DNA of 51,926 nucleotides from Candidatus Acidiferrales bacterium. Lineage in GTDB: Bacteria > Bacteroidota > Ignavibacteria > Kryptoniales > JAKASW01. Below are positions 1-49,184 of this stretch, in pieces. Location of the stretch: NCBI GenBank assembly GCA_035515795.1, contig DATJAY010000019.1:1-51926 (forward strand), written 5' to 3'. Position 1 is the stretch's first letter. Every line of letters starts with the position of its first letter. A program made the translations under genes and the position numbers. The notes below the pieces were generated by a model that did not search any database, had not been told where the DNA came from, and saw nothing but the letters and a program-made list of their open reading frames with translations.

Positions 1-2524
1 TGCGAGTCATTCCGAGCGGATGATAGAAATTCTTTTCGACATATTCATCAAGGGGCATCCCGGTAATTTTCTCAATGATTTTTGCTACCATCAGGAAATT
101 TATGTCGCTGTAAACCATCTTCGTACCGGTCGGGTATTCAAGCGGCGTCGCGTACAGTGAATCCCACATCGCATCATGCGCCGCATTGAAGTTGCTGCCG
201 AAAGAATCCGGCTCAACCAGCCACCGTGGATGTTTCAGCAGACTGTCCAATTGAGCTTCCGGGATCACAGACGTACGCCATAGATACTCCGGCGGGTCGG
301 GAGGAAGTCCGCTATCGTGCACCAGAAGGTCGCGGACAGTGACTTTTTCTTTTCCATTTCGACCAAACTTCGGCAGGTAACTAACCACAGTGGTGTCGAT
401 GTTCAGCTTTCCTTCTCCATATAATTTCATGGCTGCAAATGTCGTGGCACATATTTTAGTTAACGAGGCCATGTCGAACATCGTGTTAAGATCGATGGTT
501 CTCGAGAGCGGCGAATAATCGTAAGTGCCGAACGCCTTGTCGAAGACAATTTTCCCATCTTTCGCTACCAGAAGCTGTGCACATGGGAATGCTGTGTCTG
601 AAATCCAGAAGTTTACGATGGAATCAAGCTGCGACAATTTGTACGGATCAAACCGGGCTTCCTGTGGAGCAGCGAACCTCAAACTTGTCTGAGGCAGATC
701 GATTCCGGCACCGTACTTCGCAACGTCAGGGATCGTTACAGGAAGTTTGCCGCTGATATTTATTTCGCCAAACAGCGCCTGAACTGCTGCATCAACAGAG
801 ACTTTCATGTCACCGTATGCGCAAACATACGCCGCGACGCCAGGGGCGCTTCTTAGCAAATACGGGTTTCCAAACGAAACCATCACCACCGGTTTCCCTG
901 AACCCGTTACTTTCTGGAGAAATGATTGGACCGACGGTGCGAAATCGATTGTCCCGGTTCCAGACCGCCACCGGACATATGTCGGAATAATTACAATGCT
1001 CGCGTTAGATACGGCATTCATCGCGTTCTGGAAATCGAGCTCGTTAGAAGTCGGGTCAACCTGAACGAAATCCACATTCTCGTATCTTTGTAACAGTTCC
1101 ATTCGGAATTCCCCGGCAACGCTCGGGTCTCCATTATCTGATACGACCAGGCAAAGGATTCGCTGCGGTTGATGGTACTGAAGCGGAAGGATATTGCTAT
1201 CATTTTTGACAATGGTAATCGAGCGACGAGCAGCATGTTCGGCAAGAAGCTGATGCGCCTCTGTGCCGACAATTCTCGGTATGGAATTCAGGTCAACAAA
1301 CCTCTCCTTGTTCAGACCCAGCTCTGACTTTATGTCGAGTATCTTTTTTACCGCGCTGTCGACTCTTGCCTGGCTGATTTCGCCACGCTCCACGGCTTTT
1401 GTGATCGCATCTATCGCAACTCTATTGTCTGGCGGCATCAACACAATGTCTGCTCCAGCTTTGACGGCTCTTATCGCCGCGTCCGCTCCCGAAAATTCAT
1501 TGGTCACGCCCTTCATCGTCATTGCATCAGTGACGACAAGTCCATGAAAGCCCAGAGTGTCCTCGAGCAGGCCTGTAGTTATCCGCGATGACAGGGTTCC
1601 AGGCACACCCTGTTCCGTGTCTATCTTGGGAAATGCTATGTGTGCCACCATGATCGATTTTACACCTGAACCGATGTCCGATTTGAATGGAATCAGCTCC
1701 ATAGTATCAAGCCGCTGAACGCCATATCCGATCACTGGCAATCCAACGTGGGAATCAACCCTCGTATCCCCATGACCCGGAAAATGTTTTGCCGTTGCAA
1801 TAACTCCACCATCCTGACTTCCTTTGACAAATGCCGACGCAAGCTTCGCGACAAGATAGGGATTTTCGCCAAACGAGCGGACATTAATGATAGGATTCTC
1901 CGGATTGTCGTTGACATCTGACACCGGTGCATAGTTCTGGCTAACACCCACTGCACGAGCCTCCTTCCCAATGACTTTTCCAATCTCATAAACAAGCGAA
2001 GAATCCCGCGTCGCCCCGAGTGCCATATTGCTTGGGAAAGAAATTCCCCCGGTAAGTCGCATTCCCAATCCGTTTTCATAATCGGAAGATATCAACAAGG
2101 GAACATCCGCGATTTTCTGGAGATCGTTCAACAAGATCGCTTGCTCATAAATATTCCCGAGCGAGACGACCAGTCCGCCGACTTTTTCATCGCGGACCAT
2201 GCGTACCAGATCAAGATAATCGGGGTCGTCATCGCTTAAATATTGAGTCAGCGAATATGGAACTACCATCTGAGCGACTTTTTCTCTCAACGTCAGAGAG
2301 GCCAGTATCGTCTTGACCCAACTTTCATCAATTGACCACCTATAGCTGCCTGAATTTTCTACAGGATAAACTTCAGTAGAAACGCCAACCCGGCCGTTAA
2401 CAACCGTCGTTGTATCAGACTTTGTCGTGGAAGCGACATGCGGCTGAGAGATCGTACGGTTGGCTGCTGTGCATCCGTAAAAAAGAAGAACAGCGACCGT
2501 ATTAAGAAGCGTAAATTTTGTCAT
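1..2524 (-). CDS. GH3 beta-N-acetylhexosaminidase (NagZ-like) fused to a class-C-type serine hydrolase; lipoprotein, 3' end cut by window edge
   Basis: Read by hand on the minus strand from ATG at 2524; the frame stays open to base 2 (841 codons), so the C-terminus is outside the window. The N-terminus is a signal peptide ending FYGC (Cys18), an acceptable lipobox. The GH3 half shows KHFPGHGDT from about residue 246, the NagZ-type His/Asp loop, and VTDAM with the probable nucleophile Asp333. The second half is a beta-lactamase/esterase-like fold with SLTK (Ser687/Lys690), VHDSG near 735 and YSD near 804, ending in HPLGMT at the edge. NagZ-type enzymes remove GlcNAc from muropeptides; the attached serine hydrolase probably acts on the peptide or another ester or amide, which is inference. 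Such fusions are known in Bacteroidota. It lies downstream of other cell-wall genes on the same strand. Confidence 0.9.
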   Translation of the reverse strand, partial: MTKFTLLNTVAVLLFYGCTAANRTISQPHVASTTKSDTTTVVNGRVGVSTEVYPVENSGSYRWSIDESWVKTILASLTLREKVAQMVVPYSLTQYLSDDDPDYLDLVRMVRDEKVGGLVVSLGNIYEQAILLNDLQKIADVPLLISSDYENGLGMRLTGGISFPSNMALGATRDSSLVYEIGKVIGKEARAVGVSQNYAPVSDVNDNPENPIINVRSFGENPYLVAKLASAFVKGSQDGGVIATAKHFPGHGDTRVDSHVGLPVIGYGVQRLDTMELIPFKSDIGSGVKSIMVAHIAFPKIDTEQGVPGTLSSRITTGLLEDTLGFHGLVVTDAMTMKGVTNEFSGADAAIRAVKAGADIVLMPPDNRVAIDAITKAVERGEISQARVDSAVKKILDIKSELGLNKERFVDLNSIPRIVGTEAHQLLAEHAARRSITIVKNDSNILPLQYHQPQRILCLVVSDNGDPSVAGEFRMELLQRYENVDFVQVDPTSNELDFQNAMNAVSNASIVIIPTYVRWRSGTGTIDFAPSVQSFLQKVTGSGKPVVMVSFGNPYLLRSAPGVAAYVCAYGDMKVSVDAAVQALFGEINISGKLPVTIPDVAKYGAGIDLPQTSLRFAAPQEARFDPYKLSQLDSIVNFWISDTAFPCAQLLVAKDGKIVFDKAFGTYDYSPLSRTIDLNTMFDMASLTKICATTFAAMKLYGEGKLNIDTTVVSYLPKFGRNGKEKVTVRDLLVHDSGLPPDPPEYLWRTSVIPEAQLDSLLKHPRWLVEPDSFGSNFNAAHDAMWDSLYATPLEYPTGTKMVYSDINFLMVAKIIEKITGMPLDEYVEKNFYHPLGMTR

Positions 2525-2746: not shown

Positions 2747-5251
2747 CTATTTTATAACCGCCATCTTTCTGATTGCTGAAAAGTTATCAGCCACTATCCG
2801 ATAGAAGTAGATCCCGCTCGGGAGTCTGCTCGCGTCGAATGTGACAGTATGATTTCCTGAGTCTTGTCTCGCTTCGACAAGCGCTGCAACCTCTTCGCCA
2901 AGGACATTGTAGACCTTCAGGGTCACGTAGCTAATGGTTGGCAGCTCATAGCCAATCGACGTAGTAGGATTAAACGGATTGGGATAATTTTGAAAAAGGC
3001 CGTAAGAGGTATGATGTACCACTTTATTGTCCCTGAATCCAGTGACCTTCCCATTCACCTGAATATCATCGACATATATCGTGCTACTGTCGATCAATGC
3101 AGATGGCAAGTGCCGAATCGCGAATCCCTTAAAAACATCGGTCGATGCATCTGAAATATCACGCCACATCCCGACATACTTATAACCATACCAATCTATT
3201 GTGTCGACTGCAAGAAACTTCTCGGATGTGGAGCCAAAGATAAAATCCAGCTCGTTTCGACTGTTATCGCCAAACACCCACATCCCAATAGAAGATACCC
3301 CGGAGATATCGAATCCCTCAGAGTTCTCTTCAGCACAAACAGACCTTACTGAATCGAATTGGTATTTCAGCGTACCTGCATCGTAACCATCATAAGACCG
3401 ATAAGAGATAAAAAAGCCGGTAACAGAAGTATCAACTCCAAATGTGCCTGAGCTTGCGGAGGGCTGCAGCCACCGACCAAGCGAAGACTCAAAGCCTTCG
3501 ATTACTGAACCACCGGAAACTGCGGCATCGACAGTAAAAGTAGTTGAGAATGATCCTTTACTAGCAACGCCGTAGTAATCAATCACTCCGGGTAAGAGAG
3601 AAAAAGTGTATTTCATCCCGGAGCCCAAGCTGGTTTGTGAACGCACAGCAACAAGTGTCAAGCCACTCGAGGTGACTTGAAACATATCTTTAGAAAGCGG
3701 CACCACATTTCCCTCCGAGTCGACTAGCGTTATTTTTGAAGAGAGCGAGTTGAACTGAACCGGCTCGTTCATCACAAACTCGAGGTAAGCTTTAGGTATC
3801 ACAGTTCCTCCGTCCCGCGGAGATTCCGCAATGACAGATGGGCCTTCGGTATCGACAGGGACCGTCGTGAATCGGAATTCGTAGGGCGTTTTAAGATTCT
3901 TTCCGTTAGATGCTTTTGCCGACGTGCTTATACTAACATCGTAAGATGTCTTCCATACGAGAAAGGCATCGGGATGAAAGACCAATTGCGTATGATTTGA
4001 GTTGAATGAAATTCCACCTCCAACATTTGGCGTAATACTAAATGCAGAATCTGTGGACGCGGTATCCATCGGCGTATTAAAATTTATGACGACGTTCGAA
4101 TAAGCTGCTACAGCAGAGTCGTTCGCGGCAGGAGAGGATTTCACAATCGACACTTCCGTCGAATCGTATCGATGAACAAGGTCGAAATAATGATGCCAGT
4201 TCCAATATTTACCCGGATCTGTATGGTTGTTGCAGGTGGCGTATCCCGATCCTACATAAGGAACGTATTGTGAAAATGGAATTAGATTGAACCACGGATA
4301 ACTCCACGCATCGTGGCCGAAAATATGTAGGGAGTCTTCCGGAATGCCGAATTTTTCGCACAGGGATGCTGTCAGTCGTGCTGATGATTCATACTCGGCT
4401 TCGGTATAAAAAGAGGAGTCGGAGACGAAACCTTCGTGCTCAATGTTCAGCGTTATTGAGTTCCAGCATACAACAGCCCATGCCCGATCGCTGTCGTTCA
4501 CGAACTGGTCAATATAGCCATCCTGGCTTCTTACGAGGTAATGGGCACTCGCTTGATCGCTGACGTTTTCAAATAAAGAGACAGCGTAATCAAACTGTTC
4601 CTCGGTATCGTGAATAATCAAGAAAATAATTGGTGCACCGCTGCGAGAATTATAGCTGGGACTTCCGACCCACACAGGTTTAGGGATGGGATCACCGGGT
4701 TTTATGAATCCGGTCGCCTTCACCGGTTCGGGAAAGCCACTGAGATCTACAGATTGAGGCAGGATTACGATTCCATCTGCGTCGACGCCGGATTGCACAT
4801 ACTGGAGAGTATGATACGCGAATTCCAAGGCTATGTCAGGCTGAGGAATCCCGCTGTATCTAGCGATTACGCCTGACCAAGTCGGCAGGCTATCTGTTAC
4901 GACCATCGACTGTTTGTTCGTCTGGTTTCTGTATTCCGACAAGAGCGCTGCGGCACCTCTGATGTTCAGGTAGGGGTCGCTCAACAAAGAATCTACAGGC
5001 AACCCGATCAGCTTTGCCGCGCTATCGAGCGAGTACGAAAATCTGCTATCATTACGAAGGCCCATCACCCCACGGTCTCCACCTGCGACTCCTTGAGACC
5101 AATGGGTCTCGATGTAACCAATTGCTTCAAGAATTGGAGCCGGAACATTGAACTCGCTTGAAACAGACTGAAAGTACTGAGTGCACTGCGCTGGGGACTG
5201 AGCGAAAGTTTTTACAACGATCAAGGTAATGACAACAAAAATTGTTTTCAT
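2747..5251 (-). CDS. secreted peptidoglycan amidase with lysozyme-like domain, Big_5 repeats and T9SS sorting domain
   Basis: I place the start at ATG 5251 (834 aa): it is preceded by AGGGG and opens a signal peptide (MKTIFVVITLIVV..FAQ), whereas the longer frame would run into the upstream gene. Residues about 25-165 resemble lysozyme/transglycosylase folds (ILEAIGYIETHW). Residues about 200-380 are an N-acetylmuramoyl-L-alanine amidase (Amidase_2): IIHDTE (His214), SAHYLV, NIEHEGF and HTDPGKYWNW supply the zinc and catalytic positions. Two Big_5-type Ig-like domains follow, then a carbohydrate-binding-like segment (VIEGFESSLGRW), and a type-A T9SS sorting domain beginning YPNPFNPTTSI and ending IRKMAVIK. 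Predicted role: secreted or surface-bound cleavage of MurNAc-L-Ala bonds. It is in series with the transglutaminase-like gene, 49 bases upstream. Confidence 0.9.
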   Translation of the reverse strand: MKTIFVVITLIVVKTFAQSPAQCTQYFQSVSSEFNVPAPILEAIGYIETHWSQGVAGGDRGVMGLRNDSRFSYSLDSAAKLIGLPVDSLLSDPYLNIRGAAALLSEYRNQTNKQSMVVTDSLPTWSGVIARYSGIPQPDIALEFAYHTLQYVQSGVDADGIVILPQSVDLSGFPEPVKATGFIKPGDPIPKPVWVGSPSYNSRSGAPIIFLIIHDTEEQFDYAVSLFENVSDQASAHYLVRSQDGYIDQFVNDSDRAWAVVCWNSITLNIEHEGFVSDSSFYTEAEYESSARLTASLCEKFGIPEDSLHIFGHDAWSYPWFNLIPFSQYVPYVGSGYATCNNHTDPGKYWNWHHYFDLVHRYDSTEVSIVKSSPAANDSAVAAYSNVVINFNTPMDTASTDSAFSITPNVGGGISFNSNHTQLVFHPDAFLVWKTSYDVSISTSAKASNGKNLKTPYEFRFTTVPVDTEGPSVIAESPRDGGTVIPKAYLEFVMNEPVQFNSLSSKITLVDSEGNVVPLSKDMFQVTSSGLTLVAVRSQTSLGSGMKYTFSLLPGVIDYYGVASKGSFSTTFTVDAAVSGGSVIEGFESSLGRWLQPSASSGTFGVDTSVTGFFISYRSYDGYDAGTLKYQFDSVRSVCAEENSEGFDISGVSSIGMWVFGDNSRNELDFIFGSTSEKFLAVDTIDWYGYKYVGMWRDISDASTDVFKGFAIRHLPSALIDSSTIYVDDIQVNGKVTGFRDNKVVHHTSYGLFQNYPNPFNPTTSIGYELPTISYVTLKVYNVLGEEVAALVEARQDSGNHTVTFDASRLPSGIYFYRIVADNFSAIRKMAVIK

Positions 5252-45256: not shown

Positions 45257-46972
45257 ATGAAAGAAGTAATCAACATCATCGATAAGAGCAGGGAGAACAT
45301 GGTCATCCCCGATGGGATAGCCGTCATCGGACAAGGCCGCAAGATAATGGTATTCAACGAGGCGGCCTCCAGGATCACGGGGTATGGCGAAGAGGAAATT
45401 GTCGGCAAACAATGTGATATTTTATTCCGAAACAGCGCGCATGAAGTGGAACTCATCTCACGTTCCCTCATAGAAGGTACGGGATTATCCAACTTGTCGA
45501 TCAACATCACCGACAAGAGGGGTCAATTCAAGAATGTGCTGGCGTCAATCACCCCGATAGGTAAATCTGGAGAAGTCACAAGCGTTGTCTTCGTCTTCCG
45601 CGATACAAAGGAGATGCTCACACTTCATGAAGAACTTGAGACTAAAACCCTTGAGCTAATCGATCAGCGTAACAGGCTCAACGCAATCTTTAACAGCAAC
45701 ATTGAGGGCACATTCACGATAGATAACGATTGGAATGTGACTTCCTTCAACAATTCGGCAGAGAAAATAACAGGCTACAGAAGAAGCGAAGCTATCGGAA
45801 GGAAATGCTGGGAAATATTTAAATCACCTCTGTGTCGAAACGGATGTCACATGGAACAGACGATAATGAAAGGAAGGCCGACGATAGGAAATGATCTCGA
45901 GATAACGAAAAAGGATGGGATGCCTGTACCAATAAGGGTAAACTCCGCGATCTTACTGAACAACAAGCAGGAGAGAATCGGTGCAGTCGAGACCTTCATC
46001 GACATTTCCGAGCTAAAAAATCTGTCGGATCATTTGAAAGAAAAGTTCAGATATGAGAACATCATTGGCAAGAACAAAGAGATAGAACGGGTCTTCAGTC
46101 TGCTGGACAGCGTCTCGCAAACGGACTCGACGGTTTTGATTACAGGCGAAAGCGGAACAGGGAAAGAGCTTGTTGCCAGGGCAATCCATCTCAATAGCCC
46201 AAGACGAAACGGAACGTTCGTAGCACTGAACTGCAGCGCGTTCGTGGAATCGCTCATCGAAAGCGAGTTGTTCGGTCACGAGAAGGGTTCATTCACCGGC
46301 GCGATCAAAACGAAGATCGGGAAATTCGAGCTTGCACAAGATGGCACACTCTTCCTGGACGAAATCGGAGATATCTCATTGCCTGTGCAAACGAAACTTC
46401 TGCGCGTCCTCGAGACCCGACAGTTTGAGCGGGTCGGAGGCAACAGGACCATAAAGATGAACGCGAGAATCATCGCGGCTACCAACAAATCGCTGCAAGA
46501 CGAGATAGAAGTCGGCAGATTCAGAGAGGATCTTTTCTACAGGATCAACGTCGTGAACATTCATCTTCCTCCGCTCAGAGAAAGGATGGATGACTTCCCT
46601 CTCTTAGTCAGCCACTTCATAACTCATTTCAACGAAAGATTTTCGAGAAATGTGAATCGCTTCTCTCCCGATGCGTTCAAAATACTCGCTGAGTATGACT
46701 GGCCTGGAAACGTGCGGGAGCTGGAGAACGTCATCGAGCATTCTTTTGTGCTTTGCGGAAAGGACGTTATCGGATCGGAGTGCGTGCCTGAAAGAATCAA
46801 GGTGTCGGATCGAGGAATGCACATCACAAATCCATCCTCTATCAAAGAGGCCGAGACTTCCGTAATCATCACTACCTTGAAGAAACATGGCGGAAGCAGA
46901 GTCAAAGCGGCTGCTGAACTCGGCATCCATCCTTCGACGCTGTGGCGAAAGATGAAAAAGTTAGGAATATAA
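45257..46972 (+). CDS. sigma-54-dependent activator: two PAS domains, AAA+ domain, Fis-type HTH
   Basis: Start set at ATG 45257 (571 aa); the longer frame would read through the ATTGCAAT array. PAS1 covers about 10-120 (IPDGIAVIGQGRKIMVFNEA). PAS2 covers about 140-260 and contains Cys184, Cys193 and Cys197 in CWEIFKSPLCRNGC, a motif seen in PAS domains of anaerobes and suggestive of redox or Fe-S sensing. The AAA+ domain has Walker A GESGTGKE (297-304), the sigma-54 contact loop GSFTGA (344-349, a GAFTGA variant) and Walker B LFLDEIGD. The C-terminal HTH is SRVKAAAELGIHPSTLWRKM. Divergent from the NifX-like operon, which it probably activates. Confidence 0.93.
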   Translation: MKEVINIIDKSRENMVIPDGIAVIGQGRKIMVFNEAASRITGYGEEEIVGKQCDILFRNSAHEVELISRSLIEGTGLSNLSINITDKRGQFKNVLASITPIGKSGEVTSVVFVFRDTKEMLTLHEELETKTLELIDQRNRLNAIFNSNIEGTFTIDNDWNVTSFNNSAEKITGYRRSEAIGRKCWEIFKSPLCRNGCHMEQTIMKGRPTIGNDLEITKKDGMPVPIRVNSAILLNNKQERIGAVETFIDISELKNLSDHLKEKFRYENIIGKNKEIERVFSLLDSVSQTDSTVLITGESGTGKELVARAIHLNSPRRNGTFVALNCSAFVESLIESELFGHEKGSFTGAIKTKIGKFELAQDGTLFLDEIGDISLPVQTKLLRVLETRQFERVGGNRTIKMNARIIAATNKSLQDEIEVGRFREDLFYRINVVNIHLPPLRERMDDFPLLVSHFITHFNERFSRNVNRFSPDAFKILAEYDWPGNVRELENVIEHSFVLCGKDVIGSECVPERIKVSDRGMHITNPSSIKEAETSVIITTLKKHGGSRVKAAAELGIHPSTLWRKMKKLGI

Positions 46973-47146
46973 CTCACCACATTCATTCATGCACACGCGA
47001 AGATAACGTTAATTCGCAACTAGCCGAGATTGTTCAAGGAAAGGCATTGGTGAAACATCCCTTAAAACCTTGAGTTAACCAAGAACATTTCCTCATAAAT
47101 TTCTGATATCTTTTTGAGAATCGAAGTATCTCGTGCGCAAATGTCA

Positions 47147-47200
47147 TATCATGGTCATGGTACAATTGCATTCCAAATTCAGGTTTTAAAACCTCCTGCA
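47147..47200 (+). repeat. fragment homologous to the 5' region of the tandem-HTH gene
   Basis: ATCATGGTCATGGTACA followed by CATTCCAAATTCAGG aligns with 33153-33190 (ATCATGGTCATGGTACA, then CATTTCAAATTAGGG). The frame MVMVQLHSKFRF stops at once, whereas the 33-kb copy reads MVMVHTHFKLGLLEF. A decayed copy. Confidence 0.55.
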
Positions 47201-47265
47201 CTTTCAGGGATTCATTGCAGCGAGAAGCATGAACTCCGAAGGATAATCAAGAGACAACTGACGAG

Positions 47266-47284
47266 CCCCCAATTGATGTACCAA
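47266..47284. repeat. CCAATTGATG interspersed repeat, copy B
   Basis: CCCCCAATTGATGTACCAA, identical to copy A (26781-26800) over 19 bases. Confidence 0.65.
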
Positions 47285-47778
47285 TAATAAGTTGGTAATC
47301 CGGTCAAGCATTGGCAATGTTTGGAGCAGCGTAATTCTTCGGCTCCTAGTTGATATACCATCCTGATTATCGTACGGCCGGTGAGAAAGTTGATCGGATA
47401 GAGCGTTTAAGCCACAGCTAGGTTCCCGAAAATTACTAGCCTGACATCCTCAATTCCGAATGAACTTCTCCATTGCATCGAGAGCAGTATTGTCACTTTT
47501 AAAATAGTGGATATCATTATACATCAAAAGCGAAGACCGATACTGGCTCAATTTGGCCTCAGGTAGCTCAGTTTGAAATAAACAAAAAAGGAGGAAACAT
47601 CGGGGAGATGCTCCCTCCTACAGATGTCAGGGGGTTGATAAATTATAATCCATTGGGGGTTCATTGTCAAATAATGGTTCAGCCCAAAGTTGTTCAAGGA
47701 ATTCTTGCGCCAAACCATAGAATCTCTTAGATTGGACGTTGCTCTCCCAGAATTTGTGAGAGTCTTCCCATTTCACAA

Positions 47779-47810
47779 CCCCGACAGTCGTTCCTGTCGG
47801 GGTTTTTGTT
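47779..47810 (+). terminator. Rho-independent terminator
   Basis: CCCCGACAG, loop TCGTTC, CTGTCGGGG, then TTTTTGTT: a perfect 9-bp GC-rich stem and T-run on the plus strand. No intact plus-strand gene precedes it, so it probably belonged to a lost gene or to an unrecognised transcript in 47400-47778. Confidence 0.85.
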
Positions 47811-47833
47811 GAAAACTAAGCCGCTTTCCTCTC

Positions 47834-48052
47834 TCAATTATGAAATGTTAGGAACCCTTTCCAACTAATCAAATGCTTACTGATTCCCGCCCGCATTGCC
47901 GGAGTAACTCTTATGGTCTCATGGATGCCAATAAAATTGTAAGGGAAGAAGTGGATAGCGATGGCCGCGTAAGATGCCTCAAGCTCTTGGAAAAACCATC
48001 GGTGAGCCTTGTAAAGCATCTCATCTGCATTCTCATTATAGGGTTTTGACAT
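47834..48052 (-). pseudogene. C-terminal fragment of a DDE-type (IS1-like) transposase
   Basis: 72 codons containing FFPYNFIGIHETIRVTPAMRAGIS, the typical end of a DDE transposase family (consensus HYNFxRxHxTLRxTPAMxAGI). The catalytic domain is missing and the tail after AGISK diverges. It lies between the orphan terminator and the recombinase gene, 20 bases from CCAATTGATG copy C. Confidence 0.6.
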
Positions 48053-48071
48053 TCAATGTGATTGTCCTGCG

Positions 48072-48089
48072 CCCAATTGATGCACCAAC
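48072..48089. repeat. CCAATTGATG interspersed repeat, copy C
   Basis: CCCAATTGATGCACCAAC, one mismatch (T to C) from copy A over 18 bases. It lies next to the truncated transposase and 46 bases before the recombinase frame. Confidence 0.6.
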
Positions 48090-48134
48090 GCTGATTTAGG
48101 CTTCCGGTGAGCCATTCAAGCTAAGTCGAATAAA

Positions 48135-48935
48135 ATGATTCCGGATTTGGATTCATGTAGCGAAGCGAATTGTGCGGTCTCATCGAGTAGTACTGTACCC
48201 GGCGATCTTAAGCAATTACTTTTGCTTACGGGACTGTATCAAACATTTCTCAAATACGTAACTCGTTTTTGCGCAAGATTATTGGACGCGTATTTGTTGA
48301 CAGGAGCGCGTGATGAAGAGATGACCAAGGTTAAAAGGGAGTTTGTCCATTGGGACAAGGAGACCATGAATCTGCCTCCAGATATAACAAAGACTGACAT
48401 GGAGCGCATCATCCCTCTACCCGGGAGATTATTGGAGCATTTCAAAGTGCTGAAACAAAAATGCCATGCTCGCCCTTTCCTTCCGGACCGGTCTACGATA
48501 ACTCAACATTGGCAACCTATGCGTGAGGGAGGTAAGTATGGTGGCAAGGATCATAAAGGAACTGACATCATGGGTACTCTTTACGATTTAAGAAAGACGG
48601 CGGAAACAGAGTTAAAGAATATTGGTCTCAATCAGGACTATATGGATATTCTATTAGGACACAAGCGTCGCAACATCCCCAAAGATCACTACACCAACTA
48701 CAAAAGAGATCTCCCTGTCGTCAAAGCCGCTTTAGAAAATTCTCAGCATTATATTTTCCAATTGAAACCGATGAATCTGAACTCTTCATTAATACCGAGA
48801 AAGATTAGGTGTACCATGAACCAATCAGAAATGTGCTCAAAAAACTGGGTACTTTTGTTTCGAAAGAGTCTGATTTATAGCATCGGCGTGTCATCAGAAT
48901 CTCCAAGTATGCAAGGTTTTCCCTTTTTTGCATAA
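48135..48935 (+). CDS. tyrosine recombinase (integrase), probably N-terminally truncated
   Basis: 266 aa. The catalytic domain is recognisable: LLDAYLLTGARDEEMTKVK (Arg59), GTLYDLRKTAETEL (Arg153, with Tyr in place of the usual His of HxxR), ILLGHKRRNIPKDHYTNY (His176 and nucleophile Tyr186). The normal SAM-like N-terminal core-binding domain (about 100 residues) is missing; the first 45 residues do not look homologous. The C-terminus has an odd 75-residue tail. The gene ends seven bases before a tRNA-Arg 3' fragment, the classic position of a tRNA-targeting integrase. Probably inactive because of the missing arm and core-binding region. Confidence 0.75.
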   Translation: MIPDLDSCSEANCAVSSSSTVPGDLKQLLLLTGLYQTFLKYVTRFCARLLDAYLLTGARDEEMTKVKREFVHWDKETMNLPPDITKTDMERIIPLPGRLLEHFKVLKQKCHARPFLPDRSTITQHWQPMREGGKYGGKDHKGTDIMGTLYDLRKTAETELKNIGLNQDYMDILLGHKRRNIPKDHYTNYKRDLPVVKAALENSQHYIFQLKPMNLNSSLIPRKIRCTMNQSEMCSKNWVLLFRKSLIYSIGVSSESPSMQGFPFFA

Positions 48936-48942
48936 TTCGGAG

Positions 48943-48988
48943 CAGACTACGGATCTGAGGGTTGGGGGTTCGAATCCCTCCAGGCGCA
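48943..48988 (+). tRNA. 3' partial tRNA-Arg(ACG): attachment-site remnant
   Basis: CAGA CTACGGA TCTG forms an anticodon arm with loop CTACGGA (anticodon ACG). The T arm GGGGG TTCGAAT CCCTC and the acceptor 3' strand CAGGCGC plus discriminator A follow; CCA is not encoded. The D arm and the 5' acceptor strand are absent upstream, where the recombinase gene ends. This is the expected footprint of integration at the 3' end of a tRNA gene; the full gene should lie elsewhere. Confidence 0.8.
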
Positions 48989-49184
48989 CGGAGTTTATGT
49001 TTCTGGAATAGTTTCTGTCAGGATGGGGCACTTATGAATCAATCTTTCTTGCAAGCGATGATTCCGAACGATTCGGAAAAAAGCTCGCAGTTAGAAAATC
49101 TTCAGAACACCCACTCCGAGATCCTGTCTCTTAGAAATCGGAGATACAGGAGCAAGCCGGGCAGGTACTTGTTTAGACGAACCT

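Follow-up and report, generated by a model that had tools for sequence, protein, structure and literature searches.

For genomic islands of the Islander class, anticodon-centred attachment sites and tandem arrays have been described (PMC4383910). In Pyrococcus yayanosii, the 21.4-kb island PYG1 occupies a tRNA-Gln gene, with complete and partial tRNA copies forming direct repeats of 44 bp (PMC9897764). Tandem insertions at one attachment site, in trmE, are described for Salmonella genomic island 1 (PMC2297512). The locus analyzed here lies on a stretch of 51,926 bp (the window), which is the entire contig C19 of a 4.08-Mb genome assembled in 39 contigs. It has in common with the Islander class a regenerated tRNA gene, a displaced 3' fragment in the same orientation, and a tyrosine integrase by one end (PMC4383910), but its integrase is broken, with a Pfam score slightly short of the cut-off, and its interval is unlikely to be a single element. 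The complete and partial tRNA copies flanking the interval resemble those of PYG1 (47 bp here, compared to 44 bp), but in contrast to the 21.4-kb PYG1 the interval is longer and mixed, and a single tRNA is followed by two displaced fragments. As with Salmonella genomic island 1, one site has received more than one insertion; the target, however, is tRNA-Arg rather than trmE, and the elements are unrelated (PMC2297512). An attR scar in tRNA-Arg(ACG) is a known kind of feature, of which this is an ordinary but well-documented case. The fragment in the window is very probably such a scar, left by a tRNA-Arg-targeting element with a decaying integrase, in an older insertion followed by a later small element and a shuffling of blocks.

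The displaced tRNA-Arg(ACG) end

A 47-nt 3' part of tRNA-Arg(ACG), here termed attR2, is located at positions 48943 to 48989 on the forward strand (CAGACTACGGATCTGAGGGTTGGGGGTTCGAATCCCTCCAGGCGCAC). It spans the anticodon arm (anticodon ACG), variable loop, T arm, 3' acceptor strand, and discriminator A, plus one C, and begins 7 nt after the stop of the open reading frame (ORF) at 48135 to 48935. The preliminary description had reported this 3' part, lacking its 5' half, seven bases past an integrase, and we found it as described; the identity as a tRNA-Arg(ACG) 3' end stands, and the length of 46 bases given for it is corrected to 47 nt. ARAGORN detected no tRNA gene in the window, Rfam gave nothing above threshold near the fragment, the folding of its 47 nt is not unusual (z of -0.39), and no 14-mer of it is repeated elsewhere within the window. 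Elsewhere in the same genome, the fragment matched C37:10602-10556 at 47/47 positions (E value of 3.5e-18) and C37:13096-13050 at 45/47 positions (E value of 1.8e-15). All 47 nt are also unchanged in the intact tRNA-Arg(ACG) genes of five sister species (G001, G006, G008, G011, and G012). Because of these E values and the 47/47 identity in the sister species, the likeness to tRNA-Arg(ACG) is evidently not due to chance. The attachment sequence was absent from the viral contigs searched.

The integrase remnant

The ORF preceding the fragment (positions 48135 to 48935, forward strand) is an open frame of 266 aa in which only residues ~47 to 205 are integrase-like; no match to integrases was obtained for the first ~46 residues or for the last ~60. 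Pfam Phage_integrase aligned to residues 50 to 188 with an E value of 5.8e-6 and 26.6 bits, just below the cut-off of 27.1 bits, and PHROG 1 integrase gave a clear match to residues 50 to 189 (E value of 8.6e-12). Together with an alignment to a 467-aa integrase of G002, these matches delimit a tyrosine recombinase catalytic domain at 48273 to 48760 (forward strand) whose N-terminal half is missing. The catalytic set R, K, R, H, and Y is retained in that alignment, the first H of HxxR being exchanged for Y, so that the remnant carries the R, K, H/Y-xx-R, H, and Y pattern of a tyrosine recombinase. A tyrosine recombinase of such type is expected to have ~170 or more further N-terminal residues, which are absent here. 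The gene is not a complete one with a core-binding domain, as homology begins at residue ~47 and insertion sequence (IS) debris lies upstream. The truncated tyrosine recombinase previously noted before the tRNA part is thus present as its catalytic half only.

The integrase is cut at the site of a probable IS transposase C-terminal tail on the reverse strand (48124 to 48207; YYSMRPHNSLRYMNP), which was recognized as rve_3-like by reading the sequence, with a weak Pfam rve_3 match (E value of 0.09). To its left lies a gene-poor debris zone (47265 to 48116) containing a 48-nt direct repeat of 71% identity (47265 to 47312 and 48069 to 48116). No relatives of the integrase were obtained by pattern scan of the genome and viral contigs, in phages, among solved structures, or in 395 genomes drawn from the phylum. 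The only two relatives found are distant (33%), and both are in G002.

The intact tRNA gene and a second displaced copy

The intact tRNA-Arg(ACG) gene of the genome is located on the minus strand of contig C37 (13124-13050), with its 3' part at 13096-13050. It differs from the fragment at 2 of 47 positions, having CTGGCG in place of CTGAGG. The 47-nt repeat begins within the anticodon stem, similar to the anticodon-centred attachment sites of the Islander class (PMC4383910). A second displaced copy, attR1, lies 2.49 kb behind the tRNA gene (C37:10602-10556) and is identical to the window fragment, indicating repeated use of the attachment site. On the simplest reading, the 47-nt sequence of the genus is ancestral and was kept in both displaced fragments, and in the working gene it was replaced by an element's copy.

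The end of C37, when reversed, overlaps the start of the window by 14 nt exactly (TGCGAGTCATTCCG; window 1-14 and C37 1-14). The overlap falls inside a gene, and the reading frame runs on in frame through it. Homologous stretches in five relatives (G007:C25, G009:C107, G003:C145, G010:C38, and G012:C106) cross the same junction, and in G007, G009, and G010 the joined 1020-codon frame corresponds to single stretches, 952 to 1014 aa in length. Judged by these sequence matches, C37 adjoins the window contig, with the intact tRNA 62.0 kb upstream of the fragment, and the join places tRNA, attR1, and attR2 in one orientation. The resulting order is tRNA, a 2.5-kb integrase-less element, attR1, 59.5 kb, the integrase remnant, and attR2 in the window, with spacings of 2,494 nt from tRNA to attR1 and 59,530 nt from attR1 to attR2 (62,024 nt in total).

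Compared with the features by which Islander islands are recognized, the locus has an intact target tRNA in the same replicon after the contig join (C37:13124-13050), a displaced tDNA end oriented as the gene (48943 to 48989), and an interval between 2 and 200 kb (62.0 kb, or 59.5 kb from attR1). The integrase in the interval is a truncated gene only, at 26.6 bits against the cut-off of 27.1 but clear with PHROG 1. The direct-repeat search proposed in the preliminary description thus recovered both an intact tRNA-Arg(ACG) with the same 3' end (45/47) and a second direct repeat (47/47 at C37:10602-10556). The 3' half is shared between the full tRNA and the fragment, although 2 of 47 positions differ. 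The intact upstream gene, the same orientation, the shared 3' half, and the second copy support the proposal that the fragment is the distal attachment site of an element in tRNA-Arg.

A wrong joining of two pieces by the assembler at the 47-bp repeat was also considered, and the identical 47-mer on C37 and the 39 contigs of the genome speak for such an artefact. However, at 47 bp the repeat is short for an assembler, and the integrase, the left flank (common to fragments of other species, see below), and the fragment form a consistent unit, which makes an artefact extremely unlikely.

The small element behind the tRNA

The 2.49-kb element in tRNA-Arg (C37:10556-13096) encodes a 322-aa SDH-type protease-like ORF and a 184-aa ORF, neither of which had a match in PADLOC, and has no integrase. 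A 22-nt repeat (TGTGGKAAAATTGTGGGGAAAA) lies just inside both ends (21/22 positions, p of 0.0005). The variable loop of the working tRNA was apparently altered by this element. On G010:C42, a second tRNA-Arg (TTCG loop and TCG anticodon) is followed at a distance of 2.46 kb downstream by a displaced 3' fragment (L063 3906-3958 and 6366-6410). The left flank of this fragment resembles that of attR1 on C37 (p of 0.0005), so that two tRNA-Arg genes may be targets of the same type of small element.

Flanks of the fragment and the locus in relatives

The ~100 nt to the left of the window fragment resemble the flanks of displaced fragments in G010 (p of 0.0005) and G002 (p of 0.0045), which marks positions 48820 to 48940 (forward strand) as a probable P arm; a hairpin (TATGCAAGG...TTGCATA) lies within it at 48908 to 48934. 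The flank of the G007 fragment matched those of G002 and G010 (each with p of 0.0005), with no direct match to the window flank at the cut-off used. The intact tRNAs of G003, G008, and G010 and the G002 fragment also have right flanks that resemble each other. We infer from these similarities that the shared left and right flanks may represent the P and P' arms within a single family of elements. A GGGTAC-like motif shared between the right flank of attR1 and the left flank of attR2 was not significant (p of 0.34), so that these two flanks gave no matching P' arm in this genome.

The fragment on G002:C81 (L051 4990-5110) has arm-like repeats (GACTGTCACCAA) on both of its flanks (p of 0.0065), as would be expected for attP or for two elements joined end to end. 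This attP-like fragment, its right flank like that of the G003, G008, and G010 tRNAs, and the IS debris immediately left of the integrase in the window are consistent with an integrase-attP cassette that was brought by another event, such as an IS-mediated move or insertion at a secondary site, in which case the fragment would not be an attR from this tRNA gene. We consider this distinctly unlikely, since the window fragment has no arm-like sequence on its right and lies downstream of the tRNA in the right orientation and on the same stretch of chromosome.

Across 12 genomes, the genes upstream of tRNA-Arg(ACG) (OsmC-like, glycogen-debranching-like, and a large ORF) are conserved, and the ORFs downstream mostly differ from genome to genome. 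The downstream side of the gene is therefore subject to turnover in the genus. Displaced tRNA-Arg(ACG) fragments also occur in G002, G006, G007, G008, and G010, none of them adjoining an integrase in a Pfam search, and the searches for relatives of the integrase gave none adjacent to tRNA-Arg in other genomes. The intact tRNA of G010 is followed, 85 kb further along the contig and on the same strand, by a fragment with a similar flank. The comparison with relatives also suggested in the preliminary description gave no indication that the fragment is conserved in place, as the stretches of relatives compared had no fragment next to the orthologs of the flanking genes. The DUF6515 and OmpA-like genes to the right of the fragment were considered as former neighbors of the tRNA and rejected, as neither turned up near tRNA-Arg in relatives. 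In displaced tRNA-Arg fragments of G007, the T loop is interrupted by palindromic insertions, e.g., GGGGGTTC-TCCCGAAGGGACCCCTTCGGGGG-AATCCCTCC (L102, minus strand near 4012; L101, minus strand, 20-200). One of these fragments lies 6 bp behind the intact tRNA-Arg, whose T arm differs in sequence.

Content and integrity of the interval

The window's share of the 59.5-kb stretch from attR1 to attR2 (positions 1 to 46972) was characterized by Pfam and sequence reading. The interval encodes secreted and surface proteins, a TonB receptor, a catalase-peroxidase, an arginine decarboxylase, a deformylase, and a sigma-54 regulator, as well as HdrA-like genes identified by sequence reading. Among ~20 interval proteins scanned with Pfam, none was a phage structural, conjugation/transfer, or replication protein, such as a prophage or conjugative element would carry.

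In G007, the closest relative, a first block (C37:1-8.7 kb plus window 1-22 kb) matched contig C25, a second (window 35-47 kb) matched C10, and a nagA-like gene matched C21. In the part of G007 searched, the interval is thus not a unit that is present or absent as a whole, its blocks being apart on these three contigs. The sigma-54 regulator gene is followed in G007 by a tRNA-Asn (L089 10440-10513) and in the window by debris (46972 to 47265), and the genes that come after the regulator in G007 are on contig C16 of the window's genome. Chromosomal blocks appear from this gene order to have been reordered around the interval, and the interval is likely to have been rearranged later. With blocks so placed on the G007 contigs, at the tRNA-Asn, and on C16, the interval cannot be called one island.

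A single island of intact length (62.0 or 59.5 kb), running from tRNA-Arg to the window fragment with all intervening genes as cargo, would fit the correct order and orientation of the tRNA, fragments, and integrase, and the 85-kb interval in G010 is comparable. It is nevertheless unlikely, given the separate G007 contigs for the two blocks and a third for the nagA-like gene, the lack of transfer, replication, and phage structural genes among the scanned proteins, and the ends without matching arm sites. The separate blocks in G007 weaken the single-island claim but leave the attR scar untouched. Of the two extents first considered for the element, its continuation beyond the window fits a tRNA 62 kb to the left, but the G007 blocks do not support everything in between being one element. 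A further reading, in which tRNA-Arg(ACG) is a genus hub for serial insertion by elements with matching arms and stranded att copies bracket ordinary chromosomal blocks, is very doubtful. If true, the bracketed blocks could be excised or moved like islands.

Proposed history and implications

For the attR scar, we propose the following history. The tyrosine recombinase of an element would have cut the tRNA-Arg(ACG) gene in or near the anticodon loop and inserted the element, whichever share of the 59.5 kb it brought in. The tRNA gene would have been made whole by the copy of the 3' end that the element carried, with the original 3' half displaced to the distal end, next to the integrase gene. 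Afterwards, this tRNA gene may have taken up a smaller integrase-less element and had its 3' half replaced a second time. The older integrase, bordered by the IS debris, would have lost its N-terminal half. A probable shuffling of chromosomal blocks between the sites would have given attR2 its present position, 62.0 kb downstream from the tRNA.

The finding leaves the picture of how tRNA-targeting elements work unchanged. In the assembly, it connects C37 with the window contig. For a little-studied group, it identifies tRNA-Arg(ACG) as a clear hotspot of insertion, with two displaced copies behind one tRNA gene.
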